Notes under the pieces: model-generated
Told to the model about the DNA's origin: nothing
The model's input: the letters and a program-made list of their open reading frames with translations, nothing else
The model's database searches: none
From: Bolinopsis microptera
Lineage: Eukaryota > Ctenophora > Tentaculata > Lobata > Bolinopsidae
NCBI RefSeq assembly: GCF_026151205.1
Contig: NC_087081.1
Location: 12,544,340 to 12,608,339, forward strand
Length of the DNA stretch: 64,000 bases
Direction of reading: 5' to 3'
Shown here: one piece after another, positions 20,799-57,595 of the stretch
Position numbering within the stretch: position 1 is the stretch's first letter
Layout of the letters: each line of letters begins with the position of its first letter
Made by a program: the position numbers and the translations under genes

Positions 20799-20926
20799 TA
20801 CCCAAACAACAAGAAGAAGAGGGGGCTGTATCCTTGTCCTAGTGTCCTTCCCTCGAAAGCAAATGTAACCATCTGAATCCAGCAGTTGTTGAGTTATTCT
20901 CTGACTCCGATCCCGTATCTTAAGAG

Positions 20927-22310
20927 TAGGGGTGGGCACGAAAATGCAAATTTTCCAAATTTTTAAACGGCCCTGTTTTTTGGGTAAAGGGACCTCCAAA
21001 ATGAAAAAATAACTTGGTTTGGGGTCAAAAAAGCCCAAAATAAATATTTCCCGCCCCGTTTTCGGTTAGCAGGAGGGTCATTTTTTACGTTTTTGACTAA
21101 AATTGGCTTTATTTAATTCATTTTCACCTTTTACACCTCATTGTTACCCATGATTGTGAATCATTATTGACAAACCAGGTAGGGTGAATGATTTCAGCCA
21201 TCTAAAAATTTTCTGAAGACCCCCAGGGTGCCCGTATCCATGGAAACGGGTCGTTTTGAAAAACATTTAAGCGAAATCAGCCAAAATGTTTGTTTTTACC
21301 CCTTTTTGCCATTCAAAGACTTTTAACATGGCCAAAAGTATCCAGAAAGACCATTATTGTATATTGTAACTTGTATGCCAACTATAAAAGGTATAAAAAC
21401 ATGATGTTAGGTGTTTTAGTGGTATTTTTGGGCCTTAGCAACGCCTAGCAACGGGGCGTTTTAGGCATTTTAGAGGTTAATACATGTCATTTTAATATCT
21501 TACACTCTATTGTTACTAATGAATGTTGATTATTATTAACATACCAGGTAGGGTTGATGATTTCAAGCTTCCAGAGCTCATCTGGAGGCATATTGGGTGC
21601 CCGTAACCATGGAAACTCGTCTTTTTTTACGAAAAATTGAGATTTCAGTGAAAATTAGGGTTTTTTATAACTTTATCCATAAATATTATACTAGTTATCC
21701 TTTATAAACCCTATGACAGTTGTGTATTGGGAGATAAAATGGTAACTAATGTCTAACACTTCAGGGAGATAAGTTTTCCCACTATTTAGGCCCCTAGCAA
21801 CCCATAGCAACGACGATTTACATGCAAAATAAGGCATAAAATACCACTATTTGACCCAAAACTGTTGAAAATTGACCTGGGTCATGGTAACAACGGTTTA
21901 AAACAGTAAAGTGATTACAATTAAACTATTGATGTTAGGGTTCCTCACTATGTAGGCCCCTAGCAACCCATAGCAACACCTAGTTACGTGAGTCTTGGTC
22001 GTACCTTCATATCAATACCGATTGTCTGTAAGGTATGAGTGCCTTTCCTAACTTGCCAAATCCTGGCAAATCCAGTAACGTGTAGATCCTTTAATAGAAC
22101 TCATGAAAGTTATGGTTGCAGAATCCCCATTCACACTGAGGACCTCCCTTGGGTATAATGTATCCTCAAACAGCCCTATTACACAGTTGTTCTTCTTAGG
22201 AGGCGAACTCTCATCAGTTTCACCACACTAAACTTGATCTGGATAACTATATGAATAGAATGGGGCTGTAAGGGTTCTAACTGCTCTTCAACAACTCTGG
22301 GGCTTGACTT
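20927..22310. repeat. Left inverted arm
   Basis: It pairs with about 28500-29909. It also contains two diverged tandem copies of a block of about 370 bp (about 21142-21265 and 21511-21632 share ACCAGGTAGGGT and GGGTGCCCGTA.CCATGGAAAC). TAGCAACCCATAGCAAC or close relatives occur several times. Confidence 0.85.
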
Positions 22311-22824
22311 GGTAACTGGGAGATCCTCTACACTTACTGGGGCAATACTTTTACCCTGATAGCCAATGATATCAGGGTTTAATACTTTCAACACTACTAT
22401 ATAACAAATAATTTTAGGCATGTACAATGGCATGACGGGCTAGGAAGTACAGCCGATCTCCTGGTATGCGGGTGCGCTGGGGTTCCTGAAGTTCGCCTCC
22501 TGAGTTAGGCTCCTCTCGCCCAGTGCTTGCACTGGGCAACAACACCTTAAACACGATGTAAGTTTCTCTTTTACTTCTTTCTCATTGTTAGCTTATTTTG
22601 AATGTGAATTTTTACATCTCTGATATTGCCCCTCTTATCCTTACTCTAGCTATATTTTCACTGGCAAATTTAACTTTACTCCCGACCAGCAGTTTCATTA
22701 CACATTTTCTCGTGCCATTTTCCTTCCAGGTCGTGTTTAGTGCTGTGGGAGGTTGCCTACTCTGAGGTGTTACGGATGGTTCCCTGGCAAACTTTGCTGC
22801 CAGACTCGACAATCTCTGACAACA

Positions 22825-24198
22825 ATGATAAACCTTCAAGAGATTTTCGACTATGTCAAAGCTGCCTCAGTTGAGGATCTACGTCATATCCTTAACTCTG
22901 TTCAAAACGAGCTGCCAAAGCGTGAGGGAAAGGTGGACAATTTTGTGTTACATATAGAGGACTTCTGCGAGGATGAGGTTCTCCGTGATGCGGTATGGGT
23001 TGAATGTGAGTCCCTGCAGAAACTGAACACCGAGGGAAGACACAAGGCAACAACAGCTTGGTTGTGCTCACAGGATGCACCCTATATTTACACTGACACA
23101 AATCCAGTGCACCCACCACAGGATATCAGTGGTTTCCCTAATATCAAAAGACTCCTGAGTCTTGTAAACTCGAGTACGGAGATAACTGGACCTCTGGACT
23201 CATGTCTGGTCATCAAGTATGGAAACAACCAAGCGAGTACTTCAATACACAATGACGGTGAGAAACTAATGGACCAGGAGAAATCGATTTGCTCTTTCTC
23301 ACTGGGATGTGAACGGACGCTTGAGTTTTACGAGGGCACAACTGGGAAACCTAATTGTGTCAAGACGATAAGGATGAAGAACAACAGTCTTGTTGTAATG
23401 CGGCCTGGGACACAGCAGAATCTGAGGCATGCTGTGCGAGCAGAGCCGGCCACAAAGGGAGAGCCTCCAAAGAAATCGGAGCAAGTAAGATACTCCCTGT
23501 CATTTCGAGCTATTGTGAAATCTGGTGGCCAAGTTAGCTCTCAGAATATCAGCACAGAGACTAGTACACCAGCTTCTGGCACCGAAGCCCAAGTACCTGC
23601 GCAAAGAGTCACGTTGGTTGCTGGAGACTCTTATGCTCAAAGATTGGACTCCGCAAAGCTGGGAAAAGGGAAAGTCACAGTCGTAAATGTTGCAGAAGGC
23701 GGAGCAAAAATGGACAAAGTCCAGAAACAGTTGGAGGACTACTGCACGGCACATCCTGATGTCCACGTTGAGAAGCTTCTGATCAGCGTAGGCACAAACG
23801 ATATTAGGCGTGTGGGGGATAAAATTGGTATTTTGAGGGGACCAGTAAAGCAACTTTTTGGTAAGATAGGCCTATTATTTCCCAACTGTAAGGTATATGT
23901 TCAATCTCTATTGCCATTACCTTTACAGAATGATAACGATAAATTAACTAACAAGAGGGTAATGGATTTTAATAGGATTTTATACAATGAGTGTGTATTT
24001 AGGAGGTTCTTTTTCATGGATGTGTTTTATCCCTTTACAAAGTTTAAGAGAGCTCTAAGTGAGCCTGTTAAGAGATTTGATCCCTTATTTGAGAACAAAG
24101 GCATTCACCCCAATCCTCAGAAAGGTATGGGTGTGTTGGCCAGATTTTATATTCGTGCCATCCACAGTAGATATTTTAATCCTTATATCTATCAGTAG
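22825..24198 (+). CDS. LINE ORF1: AlkB-like dioxygenase domain fused to SGNH esterase-like domain
   Basis: The frame is open from 22753 (481 codons); ATG 22825 (residue 25 of that numbering) is an alternative start in the better context MINLQEIF. Residues about 100-256 carry the AlkB set of iron and 2-oxoglutarate ligands: H166-x-D168 in SIHNDGE (23248), H226 in LRHAV (23428), and R246...R252 in RYSLSFR (23488-23508). AlkB enzymes oxidatively demethylate nucleic acids. Residues about 285-465 look like an SGNH hydrolase: block I GDS (291-293), block III GTND (347-350), block V IHPN with H452. The usual Asp three residues before that His is Lys here, so esterase activity is uncertain. SGNH/esterase domains are known in CR1 ORF1; the joined AlkB domain is the unusual part. 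Confidence 0.85.
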   Translation: MINLQEIFDYVKAASVEDLRHILNSVQNELPKREGKVDNFVLHIEDFCEDEVLRDAVWVECESLQKLNTEGRHKATTAWLCSQDAPYIYTDTNPVHPPQDISGFPNIKRLLSLVNSSTEITGPLDSCLVIKYGNNQASTSIHNDGEKLMDQEKSICSFSLGCERTLEFYEGTTGKPNCVKTIRMKNNSLVVMRPGTQQNLRHAVRAEPATKGEPPKKSEQVRYSLSFRAIVKSGGQVSSQNISTETSTPASGTEAQVPAQRVTLVAGDSYAQRLDSAKLGKGKVTVVNVAEGGAKMDKVQKQLEDYCTAHPDVHVEKLLISVGTNDIRRVGDKIGILRGPVKQLFGKIGLLFPNCKVYVQSLLPLPLQNDNDKLTNKRVMDFNRILYNECVFRRFFFMDVFYPFTKFKRALSEPVKRFDPLFENKGIHPNPQKGMGVLARFYIRAIHSRYFNPYIYQ

Positions 24199-24280
24199 TT
24201 CTTTTGTGCTGTCTTCTGAACCTTGTTAAGCTAATGATATGCAGTTGTAGTCTGGCAAGTATACTCACCTGTAAAACACC

Positions 24281-27200
24281 ATGATCGATTTAGTAACATA
24301 CAGATTTAGAGTTGGAGTGTTTAGTGGAAATTCTTTTGCAAAATCCATCAAACATCAGAACCGTAGACGTGGTACAGGTAGTATTTTTGATTATTTAGAC
24401 AGCTGCATTGATTCTCGCTTATTATTTTATATTTTTTATGTTATATTCATATGTCACTTTTCGCTAATCACTATCACATATGTCGGGGTAAGTGGGTTGG
24501 CTTTTTCTAGGGTCACTTATGATTGCCGAGCCTTTGTACCAACATACCCAGTTCCTAACTTGTGCCGATGCTTTACAGTTTATTTCTTTTTATATTTAGC
24601 AAATATGTATTATCTGAGGAATAATTACAGTTTCGATGGTTTATATAGATTTTGCCAGATTTCAATCCATAAGAACTTAAATTGCATATTTACTGGTAGA
24701 ACCGGCAATACACTCACGGGATGCATAATTTGGTTGTTTTTGATGAATGGTTTTTTGATAGTTTTAGTAAACCCTGGAATTGTAAACCCAGGGCCGTCTC
24801 CCATAGGTGTTAGAGTTGGGAATGGTAATAAATTGAATGTTTACTTTCAGAATGTTCAAGGTCTCATCCCTTTTGGTGAACTGAACAATGCCCATCCAAT
24901 GATTGATACCACTAAATGTCTTGAAGTGTCGACTTATCTTAATGAGGCTAAGATAGATATTGCAATACTTAACGAAACCTGGTTTAAGAGTTCTATTGCT
25001 GATAGTGAATTTCTGCACCCTGACAGATATAAGATATTTCGCTCTGATAGATCGAAGAAAACTCATCCACCAGATCCTTCTAATCCAACCCGGTTTAGGA
25101 GGAATGGTGGAGGGGTCATGATTGCAGTGAGAGCAGACCTTGATCTAACTTCAAAGGAAGTTCATCTCAAGTATGGTGCAGAAATTCTTGCTGTGGAATT
25201 TAAGACATCCACTGGAATTAAGTTTGTTGTATGCACATGTTATCGTGTTGGTACACTGGGCTCCGCAAATCATGAAAAAATTGTTGAGTCTTTGAAAACT
25301 CTTCTCAGAAGAAGAGGACTGAGTAAAGTCTTCATACTAGGAGATTTTAACCTGACCGGAGTTTCCTGGTCTACCCTGGCCAGCTCCTGTCCTATTGAGC
25401 AATCTTTTGTTGAATCTTTTGTTGATCTAGGCCTTCAACAATGTGTGTTAACACCTACCCACTGCAAAGGCAAAACACTTGACCTATTGCTCACAAACTC
25501 TGTGTCAAATATTAATGACCTAATGGTAGGTGAGAGAGATAGTGCTTGCAAGTCTGACCACTTCCCCATCAATTTTAAGATCAACGTTAAAGTTGGTAGG
25601 AAGAAGCCAGTCAGGCGTATGTGCTATAACTTTAAGACTGTGAACTGGGAGAGGCTAAACCATGAACTCCGACACACGAATTGGGATGCATTGCTCAATG
25701 GCACAGAACCTGAAATTGGATGGAAAAAATTTAAGGACAAACTTTTTAATGTCACAGATAAATTTGTTAAAAAATGCTCTGTCAAGACTGATGGCCAAGA
25801 TCCATGGTTTGACTCGGAGTGTTATGATGCATGGCGTAAGAAAGTGAGATTACATAAAGAAAGGCATAAAAGTGATAGAGCTGAAATTGCATTCTCCCTT
25901 GCTAGGAAAAATTTCAAAAATGTGGTTGCTCAAAAAATGAGGGAAACATTAAATGAATCTGATGATAGTGCTTTAATAACAAAAAAATTTTGGTCCTATG
26001 TCAAATCGAAGACAGCTAGTCAGCGGATCCCTGAGTTTGTAAGCCACAAAGGCACTGTCCGCAACTGCCCTGAAGACCAGGCCAACCTATTTAATGACTT
26101 TTTCTTCGAGCAGTTCTCTGAGGCATCAACTTATGACATAGATATAGATTACTCTAATGATTGGCGCTTTGATATTGAATTTGACCACAGAAGGGTTCGC
26201 AAAATCCTTTCCAATATTAATGCTAATAAAGCTTATGGACCTGATGGTATCCATGGGAAACTTTTGAAAAACTGTGCGGTTGGGCTCGCATACCCTATAT
26301 CAATACTTTTTCATTCATGCTACAACATTGGGACACTACCAAGGGAGTGGAAACTGGGGCACATTGTACCAATATTCAAGAAAGGGGATAAACATGAGGT
26401 TTCAAATTATAGGCCAATTTCTCTTACATGCTTAATCACAAAAGTTCTTGAACGCATAATAAGAGATGAGTTATTGGCACTTACTAATGGCATGATCAAT
26501 GACAAACAGCATGGTTTCCGAGCTGAGAGATCTTGTGCAACTAATCTTGTAGGACTGTGCGACAGCCTAGCGCTCTCACTGAATGAAAATATGAGAACAG
26601 ATGTAGTCTACTTTGATTTTGCCAAAGCATTTGACTCGGTTAACCATGATCTTATATTATTTAAGCTAAAGAGCAAATTTGGTATTGATGGGAGGCTACT
26701 GAAATTCATCACTGATTATCTAAGAGACAGGCAACAACAGGTCTTGATAAGTGGCAAGTTTTCTTCTATGAGAAACGCCCAGTCTGGTGTACCTCAAGGG
26801 TCAATTTTGGGACCATTGCTGTTCATTATGTTCATTGATGATATATCAGTGGGGATTTCACCAGGCACACAACTGTCACTGTATGCCGATGATACTAAAA
26901 TTTGGCGTAAGATTGTTTCGGAGTCTGATATCCTGCGACTGCAGAAGGACATTGATTATCTCCATGACTGGTCACTTTCTAATAAAATGAGATTTCATCC
27001 CGACAAATGTAAGGTCCTCACCGTCGCAGGAAGGATATCCGAAACAGTTTCCCTCCTTAGTGTCCTACCACTCTTTAACTTTGTATACTCCATGGGAAGA
27101 ATCACACTTGACTATGTTGATCATGAAAAGGATCTGGGTGTAATTGTGACATCAAATCTCGATTGGAAAGATCAGTGCTCCAAAGTCCTTTCTAAGGCAA

Positions 27201-27811
27201 ACCAAAAATTAGGCATGGCGAGAAGAAATTGTTATTTTGTCCAAGACGTAAATCGTCGTAGAGTACTGTATCTCACTTTAGTGAGGAGCCTATTTGAGCA
27301 TTGCTCGGTTATATGGAGACCAGTCACAAAATCCCAGATAAGCAAGCTGGAGGGCCTCCAAAAGCGTGCTATCAAGTGGATTCTTCACGAGGAGTATATG
27401 AGTTATCCACCATCCACATACATTCAAAAATGCAGACAGCTGAAGATTATGCCGATTGAAGACCGCTTTGACTTCTTGGATCTCATCTTCTTCTTTAAAA
27501 TTGTGAAGCAACATATACCTGTCACTTTACCCTCATATTTGCAACCATTTCAAGGCCACTCAAGGCTCAGAAATAGTCACATGGACTCTCTATGTTTTGT
27601 AAGCTCTATCTCACCTCGAGCAAGCTCCAACGCTTTTGCCAAGAATTTCTTCTATAGGACCCACACTAAGTGGAATCACATTCCTCTAGATATCCGTGAG
27701 ATAGAGAGTATCACTGATTTTAAAAGTAAACTTTCCACTTACATGTGGGGGAAAATTATCCCGGTGGATTCGGACTCTGAACTTGACTATTCAATAGAAA
27801 CAAATCCGTAA
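24281..27811 (+). CDS. LINE ORF2: APE endonuclease and reverse transcriptase
   Basis: The protein has 1176 residues. Residues 1-180 include hydrophobic stretches (about 47-70 and 148-163) and end in an NPGP (169-172). The APE-type endonuclease runs from about 186 to 435 with N191 (QNVQG), E232 (LNETW), D355/N357 (LGDFN) and S425-D426-H427 (KSDHFP). The reverse transcriptase follows with GPDGI, YRPIS (710-714), FDFAKAFDS (778-786), SGVPQGSILGPLLF (835-848) and catalytic YADD (868-871). The C-terminal region holds QKRAIKWIL and WNHIPLDIR. All catalytic residues I can check are present. It acts by nicking the target and copying the RNA in place. Confidence 0.93.
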   Translation: MIDLVTYRFRVGVFSGNSFAKSIKHQNRRRGTGSIFDYLDSCIDSRLLFYIFYVIFICHFSLITITYVGVSGLAFSRVTYDCRAFVPTYPVPNLCRCFTVYFFLYLANMYYLRNNYSFDGLYRFCQISIHKNLNCIFTGRTGNTLTGCIIWLFLMNGFLIVLVNPGIVNPGPSPIGVRVGNGNKLNVYFQNVQGLIPFGELNNAHPMIDTTKCLEVSTYLNEAKIDIAILNETWFKSSIADSEFLHPDRYKIFRSDRSKKTHPPDPSNPTRFRRNGGGVMIAVRADLDLTSKEVHLKYGAEILAVEFKTSTGIKFVVCTCYRVGTLGSANHEKIVESLKTLLRRRGLSKVFILGDFNLTGVSWSTLASSCPIEQSFVESFVDLGLQQCVLTPTHCKGKTLDLLLTNSVSNINDLMVGERDSACKSDHFPINFKINVKVGRKKPVRRMCYNFKTVNWERLNHELRHTNWDALLNGTEPEIGWKKFKDKLFNVTDKFVKKCSVKTDGQDPWFDSECYDAWRKKVRLHKERHKSDRAEIAFSLARKNFKNVVAQKMRETLNESDDSALITKKFWSYVKSKTASQRIPEFVSHKGTVRNCPEDQANLFNDFFFEQFSEASTYDIDIDYSNDWRFDIEFDHRRVRKILSNINANKAYGPDGIHGKLLKNCAVGLAYPISILFHSCYNIGTLPREWKLGHIVPIFKKGDKHEVSNYRPISLTCLITKVLERIIRDELLALTNGMINDKQHGFRAERSCATNLVGLCDSLALSLNENMRTDVVYFDFAKAFDSVNHDLILFKLKSKFGIDGRLLKFITDYLRDRQQQVLISGKFSSMRNAQSGVPQGSILGPLLFIMFIDDISVGISPGTQLSLYADDTKIWRKIVSESDILRLQKDIDYLHDWSLSNKMRFHPDKCKVLTVAGRISETVSLLSVLPLFNFVYSMGRITLDYVDHEKDLGVIVTSNLDWKDQCSKVLSKANQKLGMARRNCYFVQDVNRRRVLYLTLVRSLFEHCSVIWRPVTKSQISKLEGLQKRAIKWILHEEYMSYPPSTYIQKCRQLKIMPIEDRFDFLDLIFFFKIVKQHIPVTLPSYLQPFQGHSRLRNSHMDSLCFVSSISPRASSNAFAKNFFYRTHTKWNHIPLDIREIESITDFKSKLSTYMWGKIIPVDSDSELDYSIETNP

Positions 27812-28159
27812 AATAGTTTATTCAAGATTATCTATTCTTGCTGTCTGCATTCACATATTTCTCAATTTCATCTCACAGCACAATATTTTATGAATTGATT
27901 GAATGGGTGTGTGATTTTGTTTAAAGTAACTTATTACAATTTTATAAGGGCCCATGCTTGTGCAGGAGCTGCATTTGCACTCAATATCTGTGTTTTGGTG
28001 ACCCTCAGGTCCTTTGGTTACATACATTTTGTCCGAGACAATTTCAACTTTGACAATCCATGCTTAGAGGACAATATTATATTTAACTAATTCATTGTGT
28101 AAACTTGTATGTAATTGACTGATTTGAAAGATTTCAATAAAAAAAAATAGCAGCCTCCA

Positions 28160-28500
28160 GATCGTCTACTTCATATCCTTCCTGGCCTATATCATGACCT
28201 ATTAACTTACCCAAAGGATTTGACATCGCTTGATTTTTGTTCGTGCCCTCCTTTCCTCCAGTCATACTGGCTGTATCAATTCGATCAGAAGACCATCCTT
28301 ACGAGGTCGAGGTTTGTAAGTTACATTTTAAGACATTCAAATTTGAAGGGGAACAGAAGCAGTCACTCAAGAGTGTGTTCCAGCAGGAAGCTGACTTGCT
28401 GTGTGAAGAAACCAAGGTGGTGGAAGTTATTACAAAATGTAAAGCTTCACACGTTCTACAAGATCTTGTTTAAACAATTGGCTAGCTAAACCGGTATCAG
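28160..28500 (+). other. Internal piece of the inverted-arm element
   Basis: Between the LINE end and the right arm lies a stretch open from 28237 to 28473 (78 codons, ending CKASHVLQDLV) with protein-like composition. It has no recognised domain. It may be what remains of the carrier element's own gene. Confidence 0.35.
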
Positions 28501-29909
28501 AAAAGCCCCAGAGTTGTTGAAGAGCAGTGAGAACCCTTACAGCCCCATTCTATTGGTCATGGTAATCCAGATCAAGTTCAGTTTGGTAATCCTGATGAGA
28601 GTTTGCCATGTAAGAAGAACAACTGTGTAATAGGGCTGTTTGAGGATACATTTTACCCAAGGGAGGTCCTCAGTGTGAATGGGGATTCTGCAACCATAAC
28701 TATCATGAGTTCTATTAAAGGATCTACACGTTACTGGATTTGCCAGGATTTGGCCAGCTAGGAAAGGCACCCAGACCTTACAGAGACAATCAGTATTGAA
28801 GGTACGACCAAGACTCACGTAACTAGGTGTTGCTATGGGTTGCTAGGGGCCTACATAGTGAGGAACCCTAACATCAATAGTTTAATTGTATTCACTTTAC
28901 TGTTTTAACCCGTTGTTACCATGACCCAGGTCAATTTTCAACAGTTTTGGGTCAAATAGTGTTATTTTATGCCTTTTTTTTGCATGTAAATCGTCGTTGC
29001 TATGGGTTGCTAGGGGCCTAAATAGTGGGAAAACTTATCTCCCTGAAGTGTTAGACATTAGTTACCAATTTAACTCCCAATACACAACTGTCATAGGGTT
29101 TATAAAGGATAACTAGTATAATATTTATGGATCATAATTCATAAAGTTATAAAAAACCCTAATTTTCACTGAAATCTCAATTTTTCGTAAAAAAGACGAG
29201 TTTCCATGGTTACGGGCACCCAATATGCCTCCAGATGAGCTCTGGAAGCTTGAAATCATCAACCCTACCTGGTATGTTAATAATAATCAACATTCATTAG
29301 TAACAATAGAGTGTAAGATATTAAAATGACATGTATTAACCTCTAAAATGCCTAAAACGCCCCGTTGTTAGGCGTTGCTAAGGCCCAAAAATACCACTAA
29401 AACACCTAACATCATGTTTTTATACCTCTTATAGTTGGGGTAGTTGATATACAAGTTACAATGTACAATTATGGTCTTTCTGGATACTTTTGGCCATGTT
29501 AAAGGTCTTAGAATGGCAAAAAGGGGTAAAAACAAACATTTTGGCTGATTTCGCTTAATTTTTTTTCAAAACGACCCGTTTCCATGAATACGGGCACCCT
29601 GGGGGTCTTCAGAAAATTTTTAGATGGCTGAAATCATTCACCCTACCTGGTTTGTCAATAATGATTCACAATCATGGGAAACAATGAGGTGTAAAAGGTA
29701 AAAATGAATTAAATAAAGCCAATTTTAGTCAAAAACGTAAAAAATGACCCTCCCGCTAACCGAAAACGGGGTGGGAAATATTTATTTTGGGCTTTTTTGA
29801 CCCCAAACCAAGTTATTTTTTCATTTGGGAGGTCCCTTTACCCAAAAAACAGGGCCGTTTAAAAATTCATGACATCACCCAAAAATATTGCCATCCGTGC
29901 CCACCCCTA
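28500..29909. repeat. Right inverted arm
   Basis: It is the inverted copy of 20927-22310, including the TAGCAACCCATAGCAAC-type motifs in reverse complement at about 28832, 28997 and 29360. Confidence 0.85.
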
Positions 29910-29916
29910 TTAAGAG

Positions 29917-30476
29917 ATACACGAATCGAAGACATAAATCTTAGAGACCATTTTTACTTCTCAATCTATAATATCTACTTTATACAGAGTCGCATATGAA
30001 CTCTACGATAGGTCTAGCCCATTACTAAGCCTCGAGCATATTTCATTAAATTTGTGTGGCCACTGTAATTGTTTATAATATGTATTATGTTCGGAGGTAA
30101 TGAATTGGTAAGCTAACTTTTGAAACTTTAAAAACTTATTTTCTATTTCTTTCTTATATTTTAATTTTTTAGATTTATTTTAATAACCATTGCAATGTCA
30201 TTTCAAGTTCGTCTATATGACAAAGGCATGCAGCCGAAACTCCGACAATACCTGATGTGATTTGTTTAATATGGACTCTCATTTCGTCCACAGTAATTAA
30301 TTAAAAACTTATTTCTATCTGAAATAAATTTAGATTGTTTTAATAATTTACCTCAGAGCAAAGCACTTGCAGTAAGTTGATTTATAAATAAATATCTTGT
30401 CGACCTTAGTTGTTCTAATTACCCCATAGCTATAGTCTATAGCTATTAGTATAACTAATTACCAATTATTCTCTCA
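29917..30476. other. Flank of BTB-B continuing into the upstream region of BTB-C
   Basis: It resumes the BTB-B 3' flank after the 9-kb insertion. The part 30031-30430 is duplicated at about 34713-35100 upstream of BTB-E. No gene is supported. Confidence 0.6.
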
Positions 30477-55563: not shown

Positions 55564-56295
55564 CTACCCCTGACAGTAACTGTACTACCTGAGGTACAGC
55601 GTGGTCCCCACTAAGCAAACAGTGTTTTCCTAGAGCCCCAGTGTAGGTCACCATGTTAACACAGTGTACTCCTCCTCCCACTGCCTCATGTTCGTAATAT
55701 TAGTGGTGCTCACTCCTCATTGGTTGATTATTGTCATGTGGGCGTCATGTGATATTTTGAGATTTTGCTTAGAGGAAATTTATGGAGTTCTTATTTTTGT
55801 TGACTTGGTACTTGTTGTTTCTCTTCGAATTCTTCAGAAATACTTGGAGTGTCACTCGTTTCCGATAACTCGTAAATTTTTAAATTTGACTCGTCCCTAT
55901 AATTTGTAGATTGTTGCGTGATGGTCAGGGGTTTGTCAGGCCATGTTACCTTTAAAACTAACTTCAGTAAGCTAAGTATAACTCTCGGTAGCAGTACTAG
56001 GTTTGATAACTTGATTTAATTTATACATACGATAAGCCCCACCAACTCATCAAATCTTATCGAATTATTCGATAATTACCTGTTCCTGTATCAAGAACAG
56101 GTGACTGTAGGCGTTCAGGTTAATAGGTTAGTTCCCACTTCATGTTTTTTGCCCTCCTCCTCCCCCTCTTCCTCTCTCCCTCCTCCATATTCACAGCTCA
56201 TAACAAGTTTGACCTCACTAGTGTACCTATGCATACTCTCATGTTACATCCCAATAACAGGGCCAATGATTCTCTGGTGACTGTGGAGTGCTGAG
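55564..56295. other. Gene-free stretch
   Basis: Only short unsupported frames are present. The sequence runs into the minisatellite. Confidence 0.45.
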
Positions 56296-56299
56296 GCTC

Positions 56300-57052
56300 G
56301 GTACTGTTACTACCGCCACCCGGTACTGTTACTACCGCCACCCGGTATTGTTACTACCGCCACCCGGTACTGTTACTACCGCCACCCGGTACTGTTACTA
56401 CCGCCACAAGGTTACTACCGCCACCCGGTACTGTTACTACCGCCACAAGGTTACTACCGCCACAAGGTACTGTTACTACCGCCACCCGGTACTGTTACTA
56501 CCGCCACTCGGTACTGTTACTACCGCCACTCGGTACTGTTACTACCGCCACAAGGTTACTACCGCCACTCGGTACTGTTACTACCGCCACAAGGTTACTA
56601 CCGCCACCCGGTACTGTCACTACCGCTACAAGGTTACTACCGCCACTCGGTACTGTTACTACCGCCACAAGGTTACTACCGCCACCCGGTACTGTTACTA
56701 CCGCCACAAGGTTACTACCGCCACTCGGTACTGTTACTACCGCCACCCGGTACTGTTACTACCGCCACTCGGTACTGTTACTACCGCCACTCGGTACTGT
56801 TACTACCGCCACAAGGTTACTACCGCCACTCGGTACTGTTACTACCGCCACAAGGTTACTACCGCCACCCGGTACTGTCACTACCGCCACAAGGTTACTA
56901 CCGCCACTCGGTACTGTTACTACCGCCACAAGGTTACTACCGCCACCCGGTACTGTCACTACCGCCACAAGGTTACTACCGCCACCCGGTACTGTTACTA
57001 CCGCCACCCGGTACTGTCACTACCGCCACAAGGTTACTACCGCCACCTTGTT
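56300..57052 (+). repeat. Compound minisatellite of 22-bp and 17-bp units
   Basis: GGTACTGTTACTACCGCCAC followed by CC or TC (22 bases) alternates irregularly with GGTTACTACCGCCACAA (17 bases) for about 750 bases. The short unit is the long one lacking the TACTG segment. Long frames through it on both strands are products of the repeat. Confidence 0.92.
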
Positions 57053-57595
57053 GGCAGTGTTACTGTACTGTTACTGTACTGATTGTATATTTACTGCACG
57101 TTACTGCACTGTTACTGTACTAGTCACTGCACCTGGTCAGACTCAGAAGTGCCACTACCGGTCTGCAGTACCTGCATGACTTACCTGTGATATATATTAT
57201 ATTACATTTATTTCTGGACCCTTTTTATTTTATTGTGATTTTATAAACTTGTTTAGCATTGTATCATGTATCTTCCGGGTGTCTTACCAGATTTAGAGGA
57301 GAATAGTTACAACTCTAATATAAGATTCACAGTCAATGCCACTTGGTGTGACCTGTAACTGTTGTTACTTTGATCAATTCAAATTTCCCGATTTTCCGGA
57401 ATGTCTGTGGTATGTACACTATGTATGAAGCTCGATATGAATGAGGTCATTGTTTGAAATTACCACCGTATCATGAGGGAAGGTATAGCCTGTATTAGTA
57501 TAATAACACTGTGTAGTTGTACTATTGAGCGGTTGTAGTCTCTCACACTGGTTCTTCTTTTGTATAGCGCGGGACGCGGTTTCTCCTCCCTACTT

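Follow-up and report, generated by a model that had tools for sequence, protein, structure and literature searches.

We analyzed a window of 64,000 nucleotides from the ctenophore Bolinopsis microptera (assembly GCF_026151205.1, contig NC_087081.1, positions 12,544,340 to 12,608,339 of the forward strand), in which a long interspersed nuclear element (LINE) encodes, as its first open reading frame (ORF1), a protein that joins an AlkB-type Fe(II)/2-oxoglutarate (2OG) dioxygenase domain to an SGNH-fold domain. This statement rests on the order of the domains, on intact iron-binding and 2OG-binding arginine residues, on an AlkB-fold model, and on two open frames. That the AlkB domain of this dioxygenase-SGNH protein demethylates the element's own RNA is, in our judgment, about evenly balanced.

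A first-pass annotation of this DNA had placed one 481-codon frame directly ahead of a LINE ORF2. This was borne out, as positions 22753-24198 are free of stop codons when counted from a TTG at 22753, and an intact ORF2 begins after a gap of 82 nucleotides between the two open frames. The longest run without a stop codon in 300 mononucleotide shuffles of 22306-28502 was 192 codons; the ORF1 frame is therefore longer than expected by chance. Translation probably starts at the ATG at 22825, which has an A at -3 and would give a protein of 457 amino acids. Residues are numbered from this ATG, so that H166, D168, H226, R246, and R252 of the earlier numbering become H142, D144, H202, R222, and R228. 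ORF2 matched the profiles RVT_1 (E = 3.3e-29, residues 703-914) and Exo_endo_phos_2 (E = 5.3e-11, residues 317-430), and its best relatives in the PDB were R2 and LINE-1 ORF2. With both endonuclease and reverse transcriptase encoded in ORF2, the element is, judged from its sequence, a LINE-type retrotransposon without long terminal repeats (non-LTR) and with an APE-type endonuclease.

The predicted AlkB domain was assigned on profiles and not on the bare motif. ORF1 matched PF13532 (2OG-FeII_Oxy_2) at E = 4.3e-16 and 60.1 bits (cut-off 31.2) over residues 75-228, and PF13472 (Lipase_GDSL_2) at E = 5.3e-10 and 40.5 bits (cut-off 32.9) over residues 268-432. On these Pfam matches the earlier interpretation is supported in part: the ORF1 position of a LINE whose ORF2 is intact holds an AlkB-family domain joined to one of the SGNH fold. 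PHROG 21963, "alkylated DNA repair", matched residues 39-231 (E = 5.4e-11), and ALKBH3 was the best match among PDB sequences, whether the whole ORF1 (E = 0.0017) or the domain alone (E = 0.0006) was used. When the AlkB domain alone was searched by tblastn with an E limit of 0.1, 6 phage and 11 plasmid records were recovered at 25-35% identity, and 9 of these 17 were annotated as AlkB or as 2OG/alpha-ketoglutarate dioxygenase. A search of NCBIfam with ORF1 gave no match at E 0.1, and no relative was confirmed among viral contigs for ORF1, ORF2, the reverse transcriptase core, or the AlkB domain alone. The bare spacing H.D...H...R.....R was present in 1.1% of 20,000 shuffles of the ORF1 protein, with spacing limits that had been set after the protein was inspected, and is for that reason weak evidence. 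The bare motif thus carries less weight than the first-pass annotation gave it.

As read from the protein sequence, the HxD...H iron triad and the R-x5-R pair are both intact. H142, D144, and H202 are the predicted iron ligands, and R222 and R228 are predicted to bind 2OG. All five were invariant (9 of 9 rows) in alignment A1, which consists of the LINE and 8 of the 17 phage and plasmid matches, records found with the LINE domain itself. In alignment A4, the LINE with 54 bacterial and viral-contig AlkBs, the first four were present in 55 of 55 sequences and R228 in 54 of 55, the remaining one having a gap. For A4, open frames were looked for in 56 of 137 contig loci (39 of 57 viral, 17 of 80 bacterial), and L123 and L124 were left out for their stop codons. 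The contig loci had been retrieved by the patterns PRxxAW, GWHxDxE, LGWHADD, and MxPGMQQ, and conservation at those positions is therefore inflated in A4; A1 is free of this bias. A profile made from A4 placed ALKBH3 and ALKBH2 on top. Glu146 lies two residues past the Asp of HxD, a position that contacts the base in AlkB and ALKBH2.

The AlkB call had been made to depend on structure prediction yielding a double-stranded beta-helix. An AlphaFold2 model and a fold search found the AlkB double-stranded beta-helix in this domain, in a model that used an alignment of AlkB proteins. The closest solved structures were ALKBH2 and ALKBH3, many of them in complex with DNA, and AlkB-like domains of RNA viruses also matched in the structure search. 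ALKBH2 and ALKBH3 share with the LINE domain the AlkB fold, the HxD...H residues, and R-x5-R; they differ in being cellular enzymes and are 16-22% identical to it in structural alignments. Neither is known to have an SGNH partner.

The GDS, GTND, and HPN blocks named in the first-pass annotation are present in the SGNH domain, and S269, G293, N325, and H428 keep their positions, but the usual Asp of DxxH is replaced by Lys425. By the criteria for a Type IV (esterase) ORF1, then, the SGNH-fold domain is present and the Ser-Asp-His triad is incomplete. Because Lys425 replaces the catalytic Asp, we did not class the domain as an active esterase, and hydrolysis by it is doubtful on sequence grounds. 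Binding of phospholipids may not depend on hydrolysis. In the zebrafish element ZfL2-1, the triad is S143, D279, and H282, mutants of the Ser or the His lose hydrolysis, and H191 and S228 are transposon-specific residues; the ORF1 protein (ORF1p) is reported to bind phospholipids (PMC3905857). D279 is the residue of that triad absent from the ctenophore protein. No match to the SGNH domain was found among plasmids and phages at E 0.1.

Type IV ORF1 proteins of CR1, L2, and RTEX elements, such as that of ZfL2-1, likewise have an SGNH-fold ORF1 directly before an ORF2 with endonuclease and reverse transcriptase (PMC3905857, PMC4120745). In contrast to these, the LINE described here has an AlkB domain ahead of the SGNH domain, at the place of the coiled coil, and the model shows two short N-terminal helices. 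A survey of 448 Jockey-superfamily elements sorted ORF1 into five types, whose domains include RRM, PHD, CCHC, esterase, and relatives of these; it found the esterase type in two vertebrate groups only, and the words "AlkB", "oxygenase", and "2OG" are absent from its main text (PMC4120745). Bdelloid LTR elements carry GDSL esterase ORFs, and "AlkB" does not occur in the available portion of that text (PMC5408684). In the orchid Phalaenopsis, Ty3/Gypsy elements also code for a domain of the AlkB family that has its iron and 2OG residues; they differ in being plant LTR elements whose ALKBH5-like domain has an ORF2 of its own downstream of the polyprotein ORF, and the accessible part of the report mentions no esterase fusion (PMC9289625). 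The replicase polyproteins of plant RNA viruses likewise hold an AlkB-fold domain in cis with machinery for RNA-templated replication, but inside the polyprotein of an RNA virus and not in a retroelement ORF1. Among the matches listed from the open-licence PMC literature, a scope that does not extend to Repbase, no title or start of an abstract named a LINE with an AlkB domain. The first-pass annotation likewise knew of no description of this architecture for LINEs. From these sources, seen in part, we did not find an AlkB-SGNH ORF1 of a LINE described, and AlkB has a precedent in another class of retroelement.

In the mechanism that we propose, ORF1p would be translated from the element's own mRNA and would remain bound there. 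Its AlkB domain would hold single-stranded RNA and oxidatively strip methyl groups from bases, the targets being damage of the 1-methyladenosine (m1A) or 3-methylcytidine (m3C) type, marks of the N6-methyladenosine (m6A) type that serve host control, or both. Both m1A and m3C block reverse transcriptases, so an element that is reverse transcribed would gain directly from their removal; alternatively, the gain would come from erasing m6A-type marks. The part of the SGNH domain would be contact with lipids or proteins, in line with proposals for other ORF1 proteins of the esterase type, and it may not involve hydrolysis. We infer the activity, its substrate, its action in cis, and the benefit to the element. 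More tentatively, and somewhat short of an even chance, the element may represent an animal LINE lineage with a nucleic-acid demethylase in its ribonucleoprotein (RNP) protein, so that its RNA would be repaired or cleared of marks in cis ahead of reverse transcription. Demethylation of this kind would be a means for a retrotransposon to counter the methylation or alkylation of its RNA, in which the LINE would have converged with plant RNA viruses and orchid Gypsy elements.

Several findings weigh against demethylation of the element's RNA. Ile130 stands where 54 of 54 other A4 sequences carry Asn, so that of the N-x-Y motif ahead of HxD the Tyr is kept (Tyr132) and the Asn is lost; the equivalent residue of ALKBH5, Asn-193, stabilizes 2OG (PMC9289625). 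Ala75, Ser140, Ile141, Gly145, and Asn187 are also unlike all 54 others, with positions 75, 140, 141, and 145 lying within the retrieval patterns, and Gly145, in place of the usual Asp or Asn after the HxD motif, argues against full activity. Given these replacements and a very long end branch in the tree, the enzyme may have changed in affinity or specificity, or may even have lost its activity. The long branch fits fast evolution and relaxed constraint alike, and purifying selection on the AlkB domain is not demonstrable because a single LINE copy was examined; tblastn found no second ORF1 copy in the window. The fold model depends on the AlkB proteins in its alignment, a single-sequence AlphaFold2 model of the whole ORF1 was discarded (mean predicted local distance difference test score, pLDDT, 33.6), and the SGNH domain is without its catalytic Asp. 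In addition, ZfL2-1 could do without its esterase-type ORF1p when assayed in HeLa cells (PMC3905857); such a protein therefore need not be essential.

A possible but unlikely alternative, and a serious one, is that the AlkB domain is mainly an RNA-binding module standing in for the RRM that other ORF1 proteins have, with weak or lost catalysis. We take it seriously because esterase-type ORF1 proteins have no known RNA-binding domains, as far as the available part of PMC3905857 describes them, and because a catalytically dead mutant of the orchid Gypsy AlkB retains RNA binding (PMC9289625); Ile130 and Gly145, which substitute conserved residues near the active site, also fit such a role. However, the domain retains all three iron ligands and both of its 2OG arginines, and pure binding would not need them. 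It is improbable that the domain acts on DNA, repairing alkylated bases or removing N6-methyladenine from the target or from freshly made cDNA while target-primed reverse transcription proceeds. The DNA complexes among the closest structures and the ranking by the A4 profile point that way, but the general view is that ORF1 proteins work within the RNA-protein particle (PMC3905857), and the RNA-virus domains match too. The fold does not tell DNA from RNA substrates. Least probable is a fusion peculiar to one copy and no trait of a family, either an AlkB gene of the host or of a virus joined on recently as a chimera, or a decaying passenger: the single copy and the higher G+C of residues 1-234 (0.463, against 0.398 for the SGNH part and 0.391 for ORF2) would suit it, but AlkB and SGNH share a single open frame at the position usual for ORF1, the catalytic residues are intact, and 16-22% identity to ALKBH2 and ALKBH3 with a very long branch speaks against a conserved host gene having been captured recently.

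An origin of the AlkB domain read from the tree was rejected, as the LINE branch is too long to place. It measured 6.55 against a median of 0.68 and was by far the longest in a tree of 64 rows, in which the one eukaryotic row besides the LINE was an ALKBH3 stretch. ALKBH3 fell among bacterial AlkBs in a group that was poorly resolved (support 82/91).

The features of the LINE are listed below.

Table 1. Parts of the LINE and their positions in the 64,000-nucleotide window.
Feature	Position	Strand	Basis
LINE ORF1, 457 amino acids: short helical N-terminus, AlkB domain, linker, SGNH domain	22825..24198	+	
N-terminal helical segment, residues 1-34, two predicted helices	22825..22926	+	AlphaFold2 model, helices 4-13 and 16-29
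AlkB-type 2OG-Fe(II) dioxygenase domain (predicted), residues 35-234	22927..23526	+	PF13532, alignments, model, fold search
Linker, residues 235-262, low confidence	23527..23610	+	pLDDT <50 at residues 239-256
SGNH/GDSL hydrolase-fold domain, residues 263-457	23611..24195	+	PF13472; residues read from sequence
LINE ORF2, 1176 amino acids: N-terminal segment, APE-type endonuclease, reverse transcriptase	24281..27811	+	Profiles
3' untranslated region ending in AATAAAAAAAAA; approximate LINE 3' end	27812..28147	+	
Expected to hold LINE 5' end and 5' untranslated region	22306..22824	+	Inner border of inverted-repeat arm at 22305

The AATAAAAAAAAA at the end of the 3' flank occupies 28136-28147. 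A target-site duplication of the LINE was sought and rejected, as the best common words were 8 nucleotides long and away from the ends. The hydrophobic N-terminal segment of ORF2 (24281-24820) ends in LVNPGIVNPGPSP, ahead of the endonuclease. We take LVNPGIVNPGPSP to resemble a degenerate 2A (NPGP) peptide, as known in some LINEs, without the Asp and Glu of 2A.

An 8983-bp inverted-repeat element (20927-29909) surrounds the LINE, which occupies its central spacer and is therefore an insertion into, or a cargo of, another mobile element. The surrounding element has TAGGGGTGGGCACG termini, which may be reminiscent of hAT elements. The inverted arms of 1.35 kilobases (20958-22305 and 28503-29867) are 94.8% identical, and 7-bp direct repeats, TTAAGAG, flank both outer ends. 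AlkB, SGNH, and ORF2 all are inside the spacer and on one strand. Rfam gave no match at gathering scores over 20900-29950. Elsewhere in the window, 452-1627 on the minus strand encodes another LINE reverse transcriptase, a diverged one that shares 30% identity with ORF2 residues 637-1035. An array of BTB/POZ paralogues spans 16600-42750, with about 87-94% DNA identity and unrelated tails; in the two paralogues scanned, one tail had FG-nucleoporin-like repeats and the other a KH domain. Pfam matches placed an XRCC1-like gene at 47.0-48.9 kilobases and a prenyltransferase alpha-subunit repeat at 49.4 kilobases; with the BTB/POZ paralogues, these suit genomic DNA of an animal. Tandem VTTATRYCYYRH repeats at 56288-57082 read as a long open frame and are probably satellite DNA and not a gene.

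Control of LINEs by RNA modification is an open question that has been approached mostly through host enzymes, and an element that itself encodes an AlkB domain offers a direct test of it. If the proposed role is true, LINEs would join the short list of replicators that have captured AlkB, with plant RNA viruses and orchid Gypsy elements, and the fusion would suggest how an esterase-type ORF1 without known RNA-binding domains could hold RNA.
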